From Microthrixaceae bacterium (GTDB taxonomy: Bacteria; Actinomycetota; Acidimicrobiia; Acidimicrobiales; Microtrichaceae): a DNA stretch of 40,961 nt. Below are positions 25,050 through 40,961 of this stretch, piece after piece. The DNA lies in assembly GCA_020027475.1 (NCBI GenBank), contig JAHRAZ010000067.1, positions 1 through 40,961 on the forward strand. The letters run 5' to 3'. A program made the position numbers and the translations under genes. Position 1 is the first letter of the stretch, and every line of letters starts with the position of its first letter. The notes under the pieces are model-generated. The model saw nothing but the letters and a program-made list of their open reading frames with translations, had not been told where the DNA came from and did not search any database.

Positions 25050-25097
25050 TTCTGTGATGGTCAGGTCGCGCTTTTGCGCGACCTGACCATCACAGAA
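25050..25097. repeat. 48-bp palindromic element, copy 1
   Basis: Left arm 25050-25071, loop TTTT (25072-25075), right arm 25076-25097: 22 perfect base pairs. The arm begins TTCTGTGATGG and ends GTCGCGC. It lies 41 bases downstream of the DUF7064-like gene and upstream of the AraC gene, both minus strand. Arms are identical in copies 2 and 3. It has no T-run after the stem. Confidence 0.9.
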
Positions 25098-26472: not shown

Positions 26473-26738
26473 ATTCGGATTCGGATTCGGATTCAGACCG
26501 GGACACCTGTTGACTCACCGCGCAGGCGCCGGCCCAACACTGCTTGACCGGGCATTGGCTGACCGGTGTGTGGCTGACCGGGTACTGGCCGATCGAGCAC
26601 TGGCTGATCAGGCATTGGCTGACCGGACATTGGCCTACCGAGCGACGAATCACCTGGCCACGAGAGCGCACCAACCAAGCAGGCTGACCATGATCCAGTC
26701 CGGCACCGCCGGAGCGGACCGATTCGGGCAGGGACGCG
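26473..26738. repeat. Repeat-rich gap before the Fpg-like gene
   Basis: A 266-bp gap. Near its left end a 6-bp repeat (attcgg, three or more copies, from about 26474) follows the SCP2 stop. A regular 15-bp array at 26545-26634 is listed separately. No ribosome binding site is followed by a recognisable coding sequence, although the frame over the array is open on both strands. Confidence 0.6.
26545..26634. repeat. Six-unit 15-bp tandem array
   Basis: Units start at 26545, 26560, 26575, 26590, 26605 and 26620. Consensus tgaccgggcattggc; each differs from it at one to four bases. On the plus strand the array can be read as repeated Ala-Leu-Ala-Asp-Arg, resembling pentapeptide repeats, but there is no start signal or hydrophobic-core pattern to make it a gene. 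Confidence 0.9.
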
Positions 26739-30599: not shown

Positions 30600-32851
30600 C
30601 GATGCTCACCACCCTCTGTGTCAGCAGCGTTCGCAGTGTCAGCAGCGTTCCCCGTATCCGCAGGGTTCGCGGTGTCAGCAGAGTCCGCAGAGTTCGCGGG
30701 GTTCGCAGACTCAGCAGCGTTCGCCGTATCGACGGGGCTGGCTGGGCTGGCTGTACCGGCGGGGCCGGCCGTAGCGGCGGTGCTTGTGCTCGCTGTGCCC
30801 GCAGCGTTCGCTGTGCCCGCGGGGTTCACGCCCAAGCCGCTCCCCGCAGCGGCGTCTTGTTGTTCGTATGCCGTCACCAGAGCCACGTAGTCCGGGTCGG
30901 AAAGCAACTCCTCGTGGGTTCCGATGCCTTTGACCCGGCCACCTTCAAGATGCACCACCCGGTCCGCCAGCGTGATGGTTGACAGTCGGTGAGCCACGAT
31001 CAGCATCGTCGTGTCTCCACGGCGGAGCTCAGACAGGATCTTCGATTCGATCACCGGGTCCACTGCCGAGGTGGCGTCATCGAGGACCACCACACGAGGG
31101 TCATCTGCCAAGGCTCGTGCCAACGCCACTCGTTGCCGCTGACCGCCCGAGAGGGTCACTCCTCGTTCACCAACGACGGTTCCGATTCCGCCAGGCAGGT
31201 TATCCACGAACTGCTTGGCCAAGGCTCGCTGAAGTGACTTCTCTACATGGCCATCGGCGGTCTCGCGGTCGAGCGTGACATTGCTGCGGATCGACCGTGC
31301 AAACAGGTAACTCTCCTGAAAGGCCACAGCCAGGCTCTGACGTAACTCCACCGGGTCAACCTGGTTTTCGGGTATGCCGCCGATGAGAATTCGGCCGTCA
31401 GTCGGCTGATCCAGATGGGCGAGCAAGTTCACGAGCGTCGACTTGCCCGAGCCGGTTGGGCCGACAAGGGCAAGCACTTCACCCGGATTGGCGGTGAAGC
31501 TGACCGAGTCGAGGATCGGAATCGATTCGAAACTGAAACTCACCTCATCGAAGGTGACCGGCAGTGGACCCGTCGGTAGCGTCGTGCCGGTCTCCCTCAC
31601 CACATCAGGCTGGTCGACCGGCTGGTCGAGCAGACCTTCGTAGGCAGATTCAGTGGGTTCGGCCACGACACCGTCGACACGAGCGATCGACACGACCGCA
31701 CGGGGCATCGCCTGGAACAGGAAGCCAACGACTCGCATCGGAAAGGCGAGCCAACCGAAGAGAACCACAGCCTGGACCAGGTCACCGATGGTCGCTCCGG
31801 TCTGCTCGATCCGCACCGCTCCTGCCAGCACGAGCAGCACCATGCCGAGGCTCGGTAGCATCGTGATCAGCGGCTCGAATATCGACGTCATCCGGGCAAC
31901 ACCGAGTCGCTCATCAGCCAACTCGGTTGACGCTGCATCGAATCGTTCCCGCTCCTGGTCCTCGCGAGCCAGTGTCTTGACCACCATCACGCCGTCGAAT
32001 GATTCGTGCGCTATTGCGGCGACCTCGCCGAGCTTCTGCTGGATTCGGGCGGAAGGTTCGTGGATCCGACTCGTGTAGTAGCGGCTCAGGAAGGTCAGGG
32101 AGGGAAACAGGATCAGCGCAACCAGCGCAAAGAACGGATCTGACATCCACAGGCTCACCAGCGACACGATTCCGAGTGCCACGACTCCGAGCGAAAATGG
32201 CAGGGGCATCAGCATCTGGCACGCGGTAGTGACGTCCACGTCCGCAGTCGCGAGCAGTTGACCCGTGGGATGAGTCCGGTACGAAGACATCGGCATCACC
32301 AATAGCCGGTCGGCAACCGATTGCCGCAGCGACCTCTGCATCCGCGCTTCCATCACCGAACCGAACCAGCGACGAACGACCACCGACAGCCCGCGGAGCA
32401 AGCTCACAGCAATGATCGCCGCCACACCCGTCCATACCGTTTGGGCGGTAACACCGGTGGTGAACGCAGGAGTGATCACTTCATCGGTTACGCGGCCGAG
32501 AACGACACTGGCTGCAACCAGTGTCACGGCCCACGCGACTCCCCCGGAGATTGCGAGCACGAAGGGACCGGGGTGCATCCTCACGAACCGGACGATCAGG
32601 CGTACTCCCAGTCTTATCGACAGCGAAGCATCCGAGCCTTCCTCGGCCGTCGGGCCGGCGGCCGGGGCTGCGTCCTCCTCCGGATCCGCAAGTGATGGAT
32701 CCCCCACTCCGACGTTCGTGCGCAAGTCCGCTTCGTACGGCGACGCGTTCGTCCCCGATCGTGAAGTGTCGACAGGTGCGCCGTGATCCAGATCCAAGTT
32801 GCCGTCGAACTCGTCGTCGGGTACGAGTTCATCTGAGCGTGTGTGGGCCAA
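30596..32851 (-). CDS. ABC exporter half-transporter, degenerate-site subunit
   Basis: A 751-residue fused permease/ATPase. The first 85 residues are acidic and probably disordered. A six-helix exporter domain follows, then Walker A GPTGSGKS (about 463), a canonical signature LSGGQRQ (about 565), and Walker B 'VVVLDDATSAVD' (about 588) with Asp in place of the catalytic Glu. That replacement, together with the partner's altered signature LSVGE, falls into the same composite site, as in known heterodimeric exporters. The C-terminal 75 residues are a low-complexity Ala/Asn/Asp/Thr tail coded by an 18-bp array. The start is TTG 32851, with GGAG five bases upstream. Confidence 0.9.
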   Translation of the reverse strand: MAHTRSDELVPDDEFDGNLDLDHGAPVDTSRSGTNASPYEADLRTNVGVGDPSLADPEEDAAPAAGPTAEEGSDASLSIRLGVRLIVRFVRMHPGPFVLAISGGVAWAVTLVAASVVLGRVTDEVITPAFTTGVTAQTVWTGVAAIIAVSLLRGLSVVVRRWFGSVMEARMQRSLRQSVADRLLVMPMSSYRTHPTGQLLATADVDVTTACQMLMPLPFSLGVVALGIVSLVSLWMSDPFFALVALILFPSLTFLSRYYTSRIHEPSARIQQKLGEVAAIAHESFDGVMVVKTLAREDQERERFDAASTELADERLGVARMTSIFEPLITMLPSLGMVLLVLAGAVRIEQTGATIGDLVQAVVLFGWLAFPMRVVGFLFQAMPRAVVSIARVDGVVAEPTESAYEGLLDQPVDQPDVVRETGTTLPTGPLPVTFDEVSFSFESIPILDSVSFTANPGEVLALVGPTGSGKSTLVNLLAHLDQPTDGRILIGGIPENQVDPVELRQSLAVAFQESYLFARSIRSNVTLDRETADGHVEKSLQRALAKQFVDNLPGGIGTVVGERGVTLSGGQRQRVALARALADDPRVVVLDDATSAVDPVIESKILSELRRGDTTMLIVAHRLSTITLADRVVHLEGGRVKGIGTHEELLSDPDYVALVTAYEQQDAAAGSGLGVNPAGTANAAGTASTSTAATAGPAGTASPASPVDTANAAESANPANSADSADTANPADTGNAADTANAADTEGGEHR
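30621..30836. repeat. 18-bp tandem array encoding the ABC protein tail
   Basis: About twelve 18-bp units from 30621 to 30836, such as tcagcagcgttcgcagtg, then increasingly diverged ones. On the minus strand each unit encodes six residues (for example NAADTA, NPADTG, NSADSA). The reading frame is kept throughout, as the unit is a multiple of three. Units near the stop codon are most alike, so growth at that end seems the most recent. Confidence 0.85.
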
Positions 32852-34811: not shown

Positions 34812-34859
34812 TTCTGTGATGGTCAGGTCGCGCAAATGCGCGACCTGACCATCACAGAA
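34812..34859. repeat. 48-bp palindromic element, copy 2
   Basis: Left arm 34812-34833, loop AAAT (34834-34837), right arm 34838-34859: 22 perfect pairs, with arms identical to copies 1 and 3. Since the other loops are TTTT (AAAA on the other strand), this copy is probably inverted relative to them, with one loop change. The stop codon of the AbiEi-like gene (34852-34854) lies in the right arm. Confidence 0.9.
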
Positions 34860-35823: not shown

Positions 35824-36167
35824 GGGCCTGACTACCCGGTCAGTCGACCACCCAGTCAGCCGACCACCCGGATCAGCCGAAGGAATCGCCCCGAACGCTC
35901 CACCCGACCGCCCCAGCGGAACCCCTACCCGGATCAACCCGAGCATCCCAGCCGTTTTGTGATGGGTTTGGTTGGATGAGCGACCGAACCACCCACAGAT
36001 CAGTCGCCCATCCGTGCCTTCCTGCCTCTCCCGTTCAGGTCGGCAAGACCATGGTGCGACATATTTCACACGATAGGAATATGGAGGACTACCCAAATGG
36101 CTCGGATTCGGCCGCCCAACCATGGGCGGATTCACCCGGATTGGGCGCGGCGTCCGCCCCTGGGCGG
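35824..36167. repeat. Gap before the AbiEi-like gene, with 16-bp repeats
   Basis: A 344-bp stretch between the AbiEi-like start and palindrome copy 3. Just upstream of the start are 16-bp units ccggtcagtcgaccac (35836-35851) and ccagtcagccgaccac (35852-35867) and a diverged third (35868-35883). The rest (35900-36167) contains no clear gene or motif. The frame over it is open on the minus strand but codes for a Pro/Arg-rich sequence without family resemblance. Confidence 0.6.
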
Positions 36168-36215
36168 TTCTGTGATGGTCAGGTCGCGCTTTTGCGCGAC
36201 CTGACCATCACAGAA
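36168..36215. repeat. 48-bp palindromic element, copy 3
   Basis: Left arm 36168-36189, loop TTTT (36190-36193), right arm 36194-36215: 22 perfect pairs. It lies 42 bases downstream of the PilX-like gene (minus strand), in the same place as the other two copies relative to their genes. The sequence is identical to copy 1 over all 48 bases. Confidence 0.9.
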
Positions 36216-36257
36216 CGACGAAAGGGGTGAGGGGATTGACTGCGGCAGGGTCCGCCG

Positions 36258-38987
36258 TCAGGGAGTGGGAACTGCGTCGACCTGGCAACCGTCGAGGTGA
36301 CACAACTGCCAGTCGGCAATCCTCGCGGCGTGAACTCCGATCTCCGAAGGATCAAGGAACACCCGGGCGACACCACGAATCGGTTCATCCGAATCCGGCG
36401 GATTCATCGTGGCCGTAAGCAGGGCATTGGGGAACTTCGGGCCACAACAAATCACTCCCACTCCGTCACCCACGTCGGAACCGGTCTGCCTACTGGCCAA
36501 TGAGTTGACCACAAGACTTCCGTTGAAGATCGACTCGAATGAAGCGGTTCCGGCCCAGTCAACATCCAGATCCAACAACTGGAAATCCGAATCTCCGTAT
36601 ACACGGACGCTGTCGCCACTTGCTTCATCGATGGTGATTCGAGCGGTCTGAACCTGCGGGTGTTCGCCCGTCTCACCAACCAGCCGAACATGGTCGATCT
36701 GCTGGATCTCCACGCCCAATCCCGGTTTCACATCTGCACCGACAAATATGTTCCGCTCGGGCAGAATCGAAACCGTGATCGAGGCGTCCTCAATAGCTGC
36801 CGCACTGGCAAGAAGAGACGAACAATTGCTCATATCCATGGTGTAGGTGCTGAGTGAACGGGTGTAGCCGGGAACAACCACCGCCTCACAGTCGTCGCCA
36901 TCCACAGTGACCATTACCATGGTCTCACCAAGATCCAGTCCAGGATGGGTAAGAGTTGGGTTCGCCACCACATCCGTGCCGCCGTGATTGTCGAACACCA
37001 GCTCCAGTGATGAAATCTTCGCCTGGGGGTCATGGCCAGGCAGCTCGAACCCGGAGATCGTGAACTCCTGACGCTGCAGCGGTGCATCCCTGAGTGGTCG
37101 TGCGCAGATGTCGGCAACGACTCCCCATGGAACACCGAGATCGTATGCACAGCCTTCCTCCGCTGCTGCGTACCCGCCACCAGCCGACAACAGCTTGTTG
37201 AAGTCAGACCATTGGCCTGGGGGCGAAGACGCAATCGTCGCGGAAATATCGATCTCATTGACGACCAGCTCGGCACCCCAGACCTGGATCGAATACGGAC
37301 ACTCGCCAATGCAGCCCGGCGGGTCTCCCGGCGGGCCAAGCGCGTCGGTACCGAACTCGACCTCAAGCCGCAGTCCTTGCAAGTCTTCCTCGTTCTTGAT
37401 CGCATCGGCACAGCCCTCAAGGAGGTCCACCTCAGACCCGACCCCATTTGTGCGGCCTCGGGCCAGATCCATTGTCTCGCAGATAGTATCCGAACCAGAG
37501 GCTGGCTTCAGTCGGACCCATATCTGCCTGTTGGCTCCAAACGCCACGGGATACTCGAGGCTGCTCCACCGAAACTTCAAAGAGGTGACCGGGCGTGAAC
37601 CGGTCGAGTTGATCTCCGCTTGGAAGATTGGAAAGCCGCAGGACGAGGCGTTGCACAGTATCGCCGCGGCCCTGTCGCCAGCAGCCGGATTCGGGTCCAC
37701 AAGATTGCCCGGGTTCGAAAAGTCCCAAGGTGCCGCCCTGCCGTTCACAGAGTTCAGGAGGGTAGGGCCGACGACATCGTCGTCCGCCGCTGTGTCGCTC
37801 TTGGCCAAAGCCGGCAGAGCGGGGTCAGCGGGGTCCTCCCCTGCACATATCGACAGATTTCCCTTTGTGTGTTTCAGGGTGGTGCTCGGACCGATTGTCA
37901 CCGACGTGTTCGAGGTGGACAGTGGATCACAATCGATGCCGGACGAATCCATTTCGCCGAACACGTAGTTGGCGCCGGTGGCACCAAAACGCAGCTCAAA
38001 GTTGTCGTCGGTGTGAGCATCGAACCAATAGTCACCCGGAGTGAAGTGGAACGTAGCGTCGGTGCAGGTTGACAAGAGGCCGTTCAGGGCCTGCGTCTTG
38101 ACGTTGCCGTAGTAACCCGGAGAGAAGGTCAGCGCATCGCAAGAAACTGACCCCGGGTCGGACGAAGTGTCGCCGAGCCCGAGGGGAACACTCGGATCGC
38201 TGCGGGTCAGGCCCGCAACGGCGGCATCGTTGCAAACAGGCTCACCGTCGTCAGCATCACGAATCTGGCGGGACACCGAAGAGGGAACAAACGACTCACT
38301 GAGTACCCCACACGCGACGCCGGGTTCAGAGCCACCGGTTCCGAGGTCACCCTGGAAGTAGTGTCCCGAGACCTCGGCGCCCACCTCGGCGCCACCATTT
38401 ACGGCCGAGCCATTCTTGACCAGGACGTCACCGACGAAGGACACAGGTTCCGAACCCTGATGGATGAGGTTCACCTCCGCGGGATCGGGGTCATCCGAAC
38501 CTGTGGCCACCCATGAGAACGGATTGGATGCGTCCGGAGTGTACGGCTCGCTCGCGATCACTCGCATGTCACCGCTGACATTGGGCGAGGGATCAAGAAC
38601 TGAGGCACACTCGACATGAACGTCGGAGTCGGCATCGATCCCGTCGGCGGTTGTGTCCATGGGTACCGTTGCAGGAAGCGGCTCACATGGATCACCGGGT
38701 TCGGGCGCATTCCGCATGAACTCCACTGATGCTTCCAGAGCTCCGTCGGCCGCCCGTCGCTCCTGCGCAAGCTGCTGCTGGGTGATCGCTGCGCGGTGAG
38801 TGCTGAACGACAGGCCAAGCAAGGCGGTGATGATGATCAAGCCCACCGCCATGGCCGCGAGCACTGTGCCCAGAATGTATCCGGATTCCGCACCCAAACT
38901 CATTGCCCGGCGATCCGACAGCCAGGTCAATCGGGTCGGGTGGGTGGAACCCGGAGACGGTGCGCGGTGGTTGGGAAGGAGTCTCAT
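36258..38987 (-). CDS. Large PilX-like pilus-associated surface protein
   Basis: A 909-residue protein. The N-terminus has one hydrophobic segment ('SGYILGTVLAAMAVGLIIITALLGLSF') preceded by about 30 basic and polar residues and followed by a coiled 'AAITQQQLAQERRAADGALEASVEFMRN', as in PilX-type minor pilins. The rest is a beta-rich exported region with many Asp, Gly, Cys and Pro, including segments such as 'SSLEYPVAFGANRQIWVRLKP' and 'GFELPGHDPQAKISSLELVFDNHGG'. Paired Cys suggest disulfides. The ATG at 38987 is four bases after the stop of the upstream gene, with GGGAGGG before it. It is the last gene of the pilin-like operon. Role in pilus assembly or adhesion is inferred. Confidence 0.75.
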   Translation of the reverse strand: MRLLPNHRAPSPGSTHPTRLTWLSDRRAMSLGAESGYILGTVLAAMAVGLIIITALLGLSFSTHRAAITQQQLAQERRAADGALEASVEFMRNAPEPGDPCEPLPATVPMDTTADGIDADSDVHVECASVLDPSPNVSGDMRVIASEPYTPDASNPFSWVATGSDDPDPAEVNLIHQGSEPVSFVGDVLVKNGSAVNGGAEVGAEVSGHYFQGDLGTGGSEPGVACGVLSESFVPSSVSRQIRDADDGEPVCNDAAVAGLTRSDPSVPLGLGDTSSDPGSVSCDALTFSPGYYGNVKTQALNGLLSTCTDATFHFTPGDYWFDAHTDDNFELRFGATGANYVFGEMDSSGIDCDPLSTSNTSVTIGPSTTLKHTKGNLSICAGEDPADPALPALAKSDTAADDDVVGPTLLNSVNGRAAPWDFSNPGNLVDPNPAAGDRAAAILCNASSCGFPIFQAEINSTGSRPVTSLKFRWSSLEYPVAFGANRQIWVRLKPASGSDTICETMDLARGRTNGVGSEVDLLEGCADAIKNEEDLQGLRLEVEFGTDALGPPGDPPGCIGECPYSIQVWGAELVVNEIDISATIASSPPGQWSDFNKLLSAGGGYAAAEEGCAYDLGVPWGVVADICARPLRDAPLQRQEFTISGFELPGHDPQAKISSLELVFDNHGGTDVVANPTLTHPGLDLGETMVMVTVDGDDCEAVVVPGYTRSLSTYTMDMSNCSSLLASAAAIEDASITVSILPERNIFVGADVKPGLGVEIQQIDHVRLVGETGEHPQVQTARITIDEASGDSVRVYGDSDFQLLDLDVDWAGTASFESIFNGSLVVNSLASRQTGSDVGDGVGVICCGPKFPNALLTATMNPPDSDEPIRGVARVFLDPSEIGVHAARIADWQLCHLDGCQVDAVPTP

Positions 38988-38991
38988 CGGA

Positions 38992-40902
38992 CTAGGGCCC
39001 TCCCGGGATTGTCGTGGTTGTTGTTGCCGGTCCTGCCGGAATTGTGATGGTTTCTGTGAACGAACCGATCGCACCGTCGACGTCGGTCACAGTGAGGGTG
39101 ACCTCGTAATCACCGGAGTCAGGGAAAAGAATATCGACTGTTTCGTCGGTGGACGTGCCGAGAGATCCGAAATCCCACAGTCGCGAGGTGATTCCAGCAT
39201 TACCTGCATAGGGCGGATCGGTTGAAAGATCGGTGAACGCAATGGACGTTGGCGCCGGGTTCGGCGTCGAATACGAAAATAGAGTCGATGGTGGATGATT
39301 GATCCGGAACTCGTCGAGGACTTCCCCGGTTGTCGTGAACTGGACGATCGTGTGGGTACCGCCTCCTGAAATGGGCACAACGTAGGTCCAGGATGGGTCC
39401 GTTGAACTGGCAACGGGAACTCCGGCGGAGTCACGCAACTCCCAAGACTGAAACAAGGGGGGATTGGACGGTGTGAATGTGATCGCGTGCCCGGTATCCA
39501 GATTCACCAGAGGCGGTGTCTTGGAAACATCGGGCAGCGGGAAGAACAGCGTGTCGGACTCGCCTCCCGGGGCCAGCAGTACCTGGACGGTCCGAACCAC
39601 CCTGCCACCATCTGCATCCGTGATCGTAAGGTCAACGGTCTGAGTGCCGGATGCATCCACAGGGAAGACATAACCTGTGACCGGATTGGTACTGAACTCC
39701 GCTCCGGGCAGCTGCCATTCGTATCCGAGGTCGGCCGACGACCCGTCCGGGTCGTACGCTTCGGCCTCGAAGGTGAATTCGGTGCTTCCTGCGATCCCGA
39801 TGAGGCGCCCATCCGCAAGAGTGATGCTGACGCCATCGATTATCGGCTGCTGATTCTCCAGAACCACCGTCTTTGAAACCCTGGAAACGTTGCCGGAGTC
39901 ATCGGTTACCCGCAGATTGATTTGCTTGGGTCCGGGGGTACTCCATTCAAAGACGGGTGCCACTCCGGTCGAGGAGGAAGGGGAGCCGCCAACCGCGGTC
40001 CATTGATACGTCAAGCCAGACGAGTCAGTGTCCAGATCCCAGGAACTCGCCCCCGACAGGTTCACTCTGTAGGGCGAGGACGGTGTTCGCGGCTCGATAA
40101 CGCCAACATCAATCACGGCCTGCGGTCGAAGGCTTCCGGGAATCAAGCCTTCCAACGCGGCTGCGGTTCCCCGACGGGTTGCACTGGTGTGCAGTGTTGC
40201 ACCGGACGCCAATTCTGCATCCACAACAACCTGTTTGCAGTATGCACCTGAGCAGGTCGCCGTGACTGACCCGGCGTCCGCCAAGCCATGGACGATTGTC
40301 TGGTTCTTGTGCTCCACGTGCGGGATGCCCAATGAGCAGGCACGGCGCACGAGAGCCGGTCCGGAATCCACGGTGGCTGTCTTGTACACAACCAATTCCG
40401 GCTCGGTTCCGAAATAGCGCAGGTTGAGAATCAAGCTGGGATCACCGGCGGGAGAAGCAGAAGGGGAGCAGTCGACAAGAGAGGTCCCTGTGGATGCCGC
40501 GAGGCTCTGGTCCAGGATCATCTCGGCGCTGGCAACGTCTCGGGCGATGTAAGTCTCCAGGAGTCGAGTCTGGGCAGCATCAGAGAATCGGCCGGCGGTT
40601 TCGCCCTGGCTGGTAATCGCCAAGACCATCCAGCCCCCGACGGGAGCAAGGACTATCCCTGCAATGGCCACGGTGAGCAAGATTTCGACAAGAGTGAACC
40701 CCGATTGGTTTCTTGATCTACGCAGGTGCGACACGCGTCCGGCCGGGGCAACCGAACCAGTGGAACCCAGATCGGCGGTTGCCGATTCTGCAGTGCCCAG
40801 ATCTGGGTTCAGCTGATTCAGGGTTCCAGATCCCGAACGCGGCCAACCAGCCGGGGGGATGGCGGCCACCTCATCCGAGTGGCGGTGATGAAAACCGATC
40901 AT
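38992..40902 (-). CDS. PilW-like prepilin with PKD-type domains
   Basis: A 636-residue prepilin-like protein. The type IV N-methylation motif is at about residues 67-85 ('SGFTLVEILLTVAIAGIVL'), with cleavage expected between Gly68 and Phe69. Three PKD-like immunoglobulin folds follow: about residues 270-345 ('LTYQWTAVGG'), 350-430 ('AYDPDGSSADLGYEWQLPG') and 545-625 ('FTDLSTDPPYAG', 'DSGDYEVTLTVTDVDG'), then a Thr-rich end. A 68-residue leader before the cleavage site is very long. A GTG at 40734 would leave a normal 12-residue leader, but the ATG at 40902 overlaps the stop of the upstream gene (ATGA), favouring the long form. Part of a surface-fibre operon. Confidence 0.8.
   Translation of the reverse strand: MIGFHHRHSDEVAAIPPAGWPRSGSGTLNQLNPDLGTAESATADLGSTGSVAPAGRVSHLRRSRNQSGFTLVEILLTVAIAGIVLAPVGGWMVLAITSQGETAGRFSDAAQTRLLETYIARDVASAEMILDQSLAASTGTSLVDCSPSASPAGDPSLILNLRYFGTEPELVVYKTATVDSGPALVRRACSLGIPHVEHKNQTIVHGLADAGSVTATCSGAYCKQVVVDAELASGATLHTSATRRGTAAALEGLIPGSLRPQAVIDVGVIEPRTPSSPYRVNLSGASSWDLDTDSSGLTYQWTAVGGSPSSSTGVAPVFEWSTPGPKQINLRVTDDSGNVSRVSKTVVLENQQPIIDGVSITLADGRLIGIAGSTEFTFEAEAYDPDGSSADLGYEWQLPGAEFSTNPVTGYVFPVDASGTQTVDLTITDADGGRVVRTVQVLLAPGGESDTLFFPLPDVSKTPPLVNLDTGHAITFTPSNPPLFQSWELRDSAGVPVASSTDPSWTYVVPISGGGTHTIVQFTTTGEVLDEFRINHPPSTLFSYSTPNPAPTSIAFTDLSTDPPYAGNAGITSRLWDFGSLGTSTDETVDILFPDSGDYEVTLTVTDVDGAIGSFTETITIPAGPATTTTTIPGGP
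40763..40810. repeat. Inverted repeat within the prepilin N-terminal extension
   Basis: gaacccagatc (40763-40773) and gatctgggttc (40800-40810) are perfect 11-bp inverted repeats around 26 bases. They lie inside the region translated only if the ATG at 40902 is used. A hairpin there would suit a leader or intercistronic RNA better than a coding region. Confidence 0.5.
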
Positions 40903-40961
40903 GGCTGTCCGACCACAACTTGTCCCACAACGAAGCTCGAGGAATCTGTGTTGTCGGTGAC
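40899..40961 (-). CDS. C-terminal end of an upstream pilin-operon gene (cut by window edge)
   Basis: The last 20 codons and a TGA stop (40899-40901) of a minus-strand gene that continues past the right edge. The visible end is Ser/Val/Gly-rich ('SSSFVVGQVVVGQP'). The stop overlaps the ATG of the PilW-like gene by two bases (ATGA), so it belongs to the same operon and is likely another pilin-like or minor pilin protein. Its identity cannot be given from this fragment. Confidence 0.6.
   Translation of the reverse strand, partial: VTDNTDSSSFVVGQVVVGQP

Follow-up and report, generated by a model that had tools for sequence, protein, structure and literature searches.

An open reading frame on the minus strand at positions 38992-40902, encoding 636 residues from an ATG at 40902, specifies what we consider a reasonably probable case of a modular minor pilin: it would occupy the PilW (GspJ) position in an operon for type IV pili, be translated from ATG 40902 with a leader lengthened by a repeat, and take part in a tip complex. 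The window analyzed here, by which we mean the whole stretch of 40961 bases, is a complete contig (C3) of an assembly (G000) that comprises 149 contigs and is 95% complete. The prepilin frame sits at the edge of this contig on the minus strand, so that the genes upstream of it are absent from the contig, and genomic context was supplied by the nearest relative (G001), a member of the same genus. The G001 contig carrying the orthologous pilW gene corresponds to record JAUXGW010000218.1 (Actinomycetes bacterium isolate CSMAG_2939), with identical sequence. Among 41 relatives and 33 family genomes searched, G001 was the only same-genus genome with an orthologue; scans of genome contigs for further orthologues returned only a locus (L068) identical to the G001 locus (L034), and none was found in the viral contigs scanned. 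All within-genus leader comparisons below involve these two genomes.

The type IV prepilin signature that a sequence-only reading had noticed in this frame is borne out by profile searches. The translation contains the motif SG/FTLVE at residues 67-73, and Pfam N_methyl scores 30.0 bits over residues 64-87 (cut-off 21.2). The protein shows the features of a class III signal, with a hydrophilic leader ending in Gly followed by a hydrophobic tract with Glu5. The mature pilin part (40129-40698, minus strand) consists of an α1N segment starting at Phe69 (F-T-L-V-E, with Glu5 kept) and a pilin head, whose end near residue 258 is an estimate. Residues 1-60 of the mature part are identical at 53 of 60 positions between the window protein and its orthologue.

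PKD_4 matched three stretches when the whole protein was compared with Pfam, and searches by segment resolved these matches further. The first PKD domain (residues 279-347; 39862-40068, minus strand) scores 24.1 bits with the PKD model (cut-off 23.5) and 26.4 with PKD_4, slightly under its cut-off of 27. The second module (residues 350-441; 39580-39855, minus strand) is a weak PKD/Ig-like domain with sub-threshold matches to both Big_9 (21.1, cut-off 23.6) and PKD_4 (17.2 over residues 370-435, cut-off 27). It is followed by a stretch without a domain (residues 446-538; 39289-39567, minus strand), in which strands appear solely in a low-confidence model and for which the segment search with residues 446-540 gave no Pfam match. 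The third PKD domain (residues 546-621; 39040-39267, minus strand) scores 41.3 bits for PKD_4 over residues 565-621 (cut-off 27) and 30.7 for PKD over residues 546-612 (cut-off 23.5). By these sequence criteria the frame is a real prepilin with two clear PKD domains and one weak PKD/Ig-like domain. The three PKD-like folds proposed earlier are thereby upheld for two modules and weakly for one, at the level of sequence matches, as an AlphaFold model calculated from two sequences (mean pLDDT 36.6) was too poor for folds to be read.

Among sequence relatives in the PDB, the N-terminal part gives weak matches to pilins and the C-terminal part matches collagenase, endoglucanase and protease chains, PKD domains among them. 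The C-terminal modules thus match in sequence the PKD domains of collagenase-type secreted enzymes; unlike in those enzymes, they are joined to a pilin, and no catalytic domain is present among the Pfam matches of the window protein. Classical PilW/GspJ proteins are not known to carry PKD modules, and in this respect the earlier remark that the protein departs from the usual PilW plan holds. Nevertheless, it joins a pilin module to domains that are not pilus-specific (PKD_4 and PKD, above cut-off), the arrangement that defines modular pilins, and these have already been described as a widespread class, with more than 1,200 proteins in 264 architectures counted in the accessible part of one survey (PMC8179133). 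As described there, PilB and PilC of Streptococcus sanguinis, both modular type IV pilins, likewise combine an N-terminal class III signal, a pilin module and a grafted module; the graft is a vWA or lectin module in S. sanguinis and PKD/Ig-like in the window protein, which comes from a different bacterial lineage, and the leader has 7 residues in S. sanguinis PilB against 68 here (PMC8179133). Among three further PilW-slot relatives, N_methyl and PKD occur together in two (G016 and G003), and the third (G002, 260 residues) matches N_methyl only. Searches of the literature on PKD-bearing pilins, long leaders and actinobacterial minor pilins revealed no like case in the titles and abstract openings listed.

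The leader preceding the cleavage site spans 68 residues including Gly68 (40699-40902, minus strand). Earlier it had been judged too long for a normal prepilin peptidase substrate, with GTG 40734 suggested as a possible true start, and its length does exceed the 6-51 residues given for prepilin leaders in the accessible part of one review (PMC6916266), as does that of the orthologue (66 residues), provided that these starts are used. This range is not a strict criterion, since another review, as far as its accessible text goes, treats leader length as variable and notes S. sanguinis major pilins whose leaders are very long (PMC10191384). Both place prepilin leaders in the cytoplasm (PMC6916266, PMC10191384, accessible parts). 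In that compartment, additional residues would not necessarily hinder export or cleavage.

The upstream gene bears on the position of the start. Its 3' end lies at 40899-40961 on the minus strand (the contig ends at 40961), its translation terminates in SSFVVGQVVVGQP before the stop codon, and it is assigned as a PilV-type prepilin through the G001 orthologue, whose C-terminus reads AAVGQVVVGQP. The TGA of this gene (40901-40899) overlaps the ATG of the prepilin frame (40902-40900) as ATGA, and the G001 orthologue has the same overlap (ATGATG, L034:354) and the same frame, with its leader at L034:354-551. By comparison of these sequences, translation appears to start at ATG 40902, coupled to the stop of the upstream pilV gene, and the unusually long leader is probably real.

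The chief alternative is that translation starts internally, at GTG 40734 here and at another codon elsewhere, giving a 12-residue leader and leaving 164 bp as a structured intercistronic spacer. The 164 bp that had been calculated for such a spacer are arithmetically correct, GTG 40734 is the in-frame codon 57, and what would remain of the leader (VSHLRRSRNQSG) is basic and normal-looking. Nonetheless, the orthologue offers no start codon where GTG 40734 aligns, the only ATG, GTG or TTG codons in frame in its leader being codons 1, 2, 15 and 40. By eye, no clear Shine-Dalgarno-like stretch precedes GTG 40734, and none precedes ATG 40902 either. Furthermore, under an internal start the ATGA overlap, the open frame and the whole-codon register of both species would be matters of chance, although openness in itself is weak evidence, as shuffling of the two leaders left a stop-free frame in 724 of 5000 and 1058 of 5000 cases, respectively.

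Comparison of the two leaders yields evidence on both sides of this question. MAFFT aligns them with one gap of 6 nt (2 codons). With this 2-codon shift, 56% of the nucleotides in codons 21-68 agree, compared with 41% at the second-best offset; codons 21-56 alone match at 53%, a value that none of 1000 mononucleotide shuffles reached at any offset. Few residues agree: 5 of 20 over residues 1-20 and 11 of 36 over codons 21-56. Searching each leader as nucleotide sequence against both genus genomes did not recover the other leader, which argues against strong sequence conservation. Conservation of the first 56 residues, to which the sequence-only reading had looked for support of a long leader, is therefore found in length and frame and only weakly in sequence. 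Mismatches at the three codon positions number 15, 15 and 21 of 36 in leader codons 21-56, whereas 60 codons of the mature part give 7, 0 and 21, so that the leader shows little sign of protein-level constraint and its translation remains presumptive. In the leader block, frame 0 has 11 of 35 identical residues against 7 and 10 (the latter in frame 2) in the other frames, and 21 of 35 similar residues against 10 and 16. This poor conservation and low codon-level constraint upstream of codon 57 fit an internal start.

An internal start could also draw on the 11-bp inverted repeat within 40763-40810, which is exact (40763-40773 and 40800-40810), extends to 20 bp at 85%, and is uncommon by chance: when the 204 nt of the leader were shuffled by mononucleotide, 14 of 5000 sequences contained such a repeat. 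Such inverted repeats occur at six places in the 41-kb window, three of which are copies of one dispersed hairpin. The repeat is no proof of non-coding DNA, because it falls within a block of 15-nt units that appear near-palindromic by eye. A structured non-coding spacer was considered and rejected, RNA folding being neither strong nor conserved (z-scores of -1.7 in the window and -0.7 in G001), even if the window value leans in its direction. We also examined the leader as a possible dispersed repeat and rejected this as well, since none of ten matched loci inspected by eye held a repeat array; besides self-matches, the best short match in the leader searches had an E-value of 0.0063 and the remainder at least 0.043, and the window leader matched its own inverted repeat at 0.97. 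On balance, an internal start appears unlikely. The claim that the leader is non-coding is not supported, given the ATGA overlap, frame, length and 15-nt periodicity kept by the orthologue, and neither is the proposal of GTG 40734 as the true start, given the missing start codon there.

The periodicity just mentioned stems from a decayed 15-nt (5-residue) repeat block at 40753-40827 on the minus strand (GTLNQ LNPDL GTAES ATADL GSTGS), whose unit boundaries were drawn by eye. The in-frame 5-residue units are LNPDL GTAES ATADL GSTGS in the window leader and ATPDP GTSSS GMPDP GTAGS in that of G001. TRF reports a period of 15 with 5.3 copies in the G001 leader and no repeat in the window leader. 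In autocorrelation, the three strongest self-matches of both leaders fall at lags of 15, 30 and 45. For G001, neither of the first two lags was reached in 1000 shuffles, nor the best of all lags in 300; in the window, 6 of 1000 shuffles attained the value at lag 15, as many that at lag 30, and 28 of 300 the best of all lags. On its own, the 15-nt periodicity of the window is weak.

Tandem arrays and hairpins also occur elsewhere in the window. The arrays lie at 26545-26634 and 30618-30780, with units of 15 nt in 6.0 copies, 18 nt in 5.9 copies (also 36 nt in 3.0 copies) and 18 nt in 2.3 copies. The dispersed hairpin is perfect and is found at 25050-25097, 34812-34859 and 36167-36216, with arms some 22-23 bp long (GTTCTGTGATGGTCAGGTCGCGC and its complement) and a short, variable loop (TTTT, AAAA, AAAT and others); one copy follows the pilX-like gene described below. 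In a search requiring exact arms, its inner 30-bp palindrome was found at 19 sites in G000 and 7 in the same-genus genome, and at none in the reversed control. From sequence, these hairpins look like REP/MITE-like elements, or else a shared terminator or binding site.

To place the long leader in a broader context, we surveyed leader lengths in relatives. Twenty-eight loci entered the survey and 24 gave rows, one being a duplicate (L018 of L051) and three rowless (L022, L037 and L060). Matches starting beyond query residue 30 and repeat places were dropped and the window gene was excluded, which left 29 distinct places, G001 among them; some of these are other pilins, for example the pilA-type matches of L035 and L040 and a piece of L052 that has 72 residues, and the motif of L021 was misplaced. 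More than 500 residues follow the cleavage Gly at 19 of the 29 places, G001 included. The start is coupled to an upstream stop at 23 of the 29 (again including G001), six being without coupling. Leaders at the coupled starts measure 13, 14 (eight times), 15, 15, 16, 16, 16, 20, 21, 22, 24, 25, 32, 41, 66 (G001) and 242 residues, the last (L038) being probably a false call, with a TTG start and several nearer GTGs. Outside the genus, 22 of 28 places are coupled, and 21 have leaders of 13-41 residues. A coupled start is thus common, with the genus differing by extra codons after it, and the predominance of leaders of 13-41 residues (21 of 28 outside places) suggests that the long leader is specific to the lineage. 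It looks like an in-frame repeat expansion under weak constraint.

The long leader might instead serve a function, such as delayed membrane insertion, binding of a chaperone or of the assembly platform, or subunit dosing. Its near-equal length in two species despite sequence turnover and its richness in P, G, S, T or A (35 of 68 residues in the window and 43 of 66 in G001) speak for such a role; the short leaders at 21 of the 22 coupled starts outside the genus and the low constraint, in a sample of two genomes, speak against it, and we hold it to be quite improbable.

Assignment of the protein to the PilW slot rests on gene order, the support from the type II secretion protein J model being weak (E = 0.11, residues 64-129) and the GspH model matching the N-terminus only (E = 0.0024, residues 66-92). 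One G001 contig carries pilC (T2SSF), pilA (N_methyl), a T2SSE ATPase, which we read as PilT-like, pilD (peptidase A24) and, at its edge, the 5' part of pilV (L044:3-281), in which the N_methyl match of this gene lies. The other opens inside a pilV-type frame, after which come the pilW-PKD gene and a large gene resembling pilX. The pilV fragments of the two contigs share an overlapping stretch with few residue differences (SAYSETVKAVPLSV against SAYSENIKATPLSV), from which we infer that the two contigs are likely adjacent. The PilV-type gene for which the upstream operon had been thought worth inspecting is hence found, with its N_methyl match, in G001.

In G000, pilC is located at the end of contig C38 together with a T2SSE ATPase (395 bits) that we interpret as PilB, and two more T2SSE matches lie on contigs C33 and C139. 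Compared with G000 DNA, the G001 operon contig matched only pilC and 31 further bases, among the 40 of 59 candidates that were scored. This result, together with a single N_methyl match in all of G000, indicates that pilA, pilD and pilV of G000 are most likely lost to a gap between contigs; the part of the operon holding the peptidase A24 gene in G001 was not recovered in G000.

Downstream of the prepilin frame, the gene at 36258-38987 (minus strand) encodes a 909-residue candidate for the large minor pilin of the PilX slot, with the N-terminal pattern ESG/YILGTVLAAM and no Glu5. The protein, which we take to be PilX from its position and N-terminal pattern, is 74% identical to the available part of its orthologue (L068:2251-4140) and gave no Pfam or family match; it may be a larger tip module. 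The prepilin would be flanked by a PilV-type N_methyl protein upstream (in G001) and a PilX candidate downstream, an order like that of the PilV-W-X (GspI-J-K) priming complex; Glu5 is kept, and the type II protein J model is matched weakly.

PilM_2 was found in none of six family genomes (G000, G001, G002, G005, G009 and G016, one of them a single contig) and in 9 of 14 control genomes, which indicates that this is not the textbook T4aP set. It went unseen even though the genus carries type IV pilus operon genes, namely those for T2SSE ATPases, pilC and pilD. Type II systems share the GspI/J/K gene order, and the protein could on that ground be a pseudopilin of a type II-like secretion system instead of a surface pilus subunit; the second, PilT-like ATPase of the G001 operon beside the PilB-like one on contig C38 of G000 speaks against this reading, which we consider very unlikely, and the absence of PilM_2 is no evidence for it.

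Taken together, these data favour a modular minor pilin encoded within an operon that, pieced together from contigs, would read pilB-pilC, pilA, a pilT-like gene, pilD, pilV, pilW and pilX. Coupling to the upstream pilV stop would bring about translation from ATG 40902. A 15-nt in-frame repeat would have expanded after the old start and ahead of the basic cleavage region, producing the 68-residue leader, which would stay in the cytoplasm, be cut after Gly68 by the PilD of the operon and, because it is cut off, be free to drift. At the pilus tip, the mature protein would then enter a priming complex that also contains PilV and the large PilX-like protein, and would carry the PKD/Ig modules outward as an adhesin for a putative ligand or as a spacer for an adhesin. 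A tip-complex minor pilin displaying PKD modules in this manner is the most likely role, and the earlier proposal of a tip adhesin is accordingly plausible for a prepilin fused to PKD-type modules beside a PilV-type gene. More tentatively, we envisage a translated, repeat-built leader that changes in 5-residue steps and exceeds the 6-51 range, on a PKD pilin at the tip of a PilM-less machine; this combination is conceivable without being probable.

The finding adds a PKD-bearing pilin from an uncultured member of a little-studied actinobacterial lineage, the grafting of PKD (immunoglobulin-like) domains onto pilins being a known way to make pili sticky. It also suggests how a prepilin leader can grow through an in-frame repeat while the start codon stays in place, and illustrates how a long leader may tempt a start caller or a reader toward a nearer start. 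Consequences for the biology of the pilus are probably modest; if the interpretation is true, the repeat-built leader would constitute a natural test of the leader length that a prepilin peptidase and its assembly machine tolerate.
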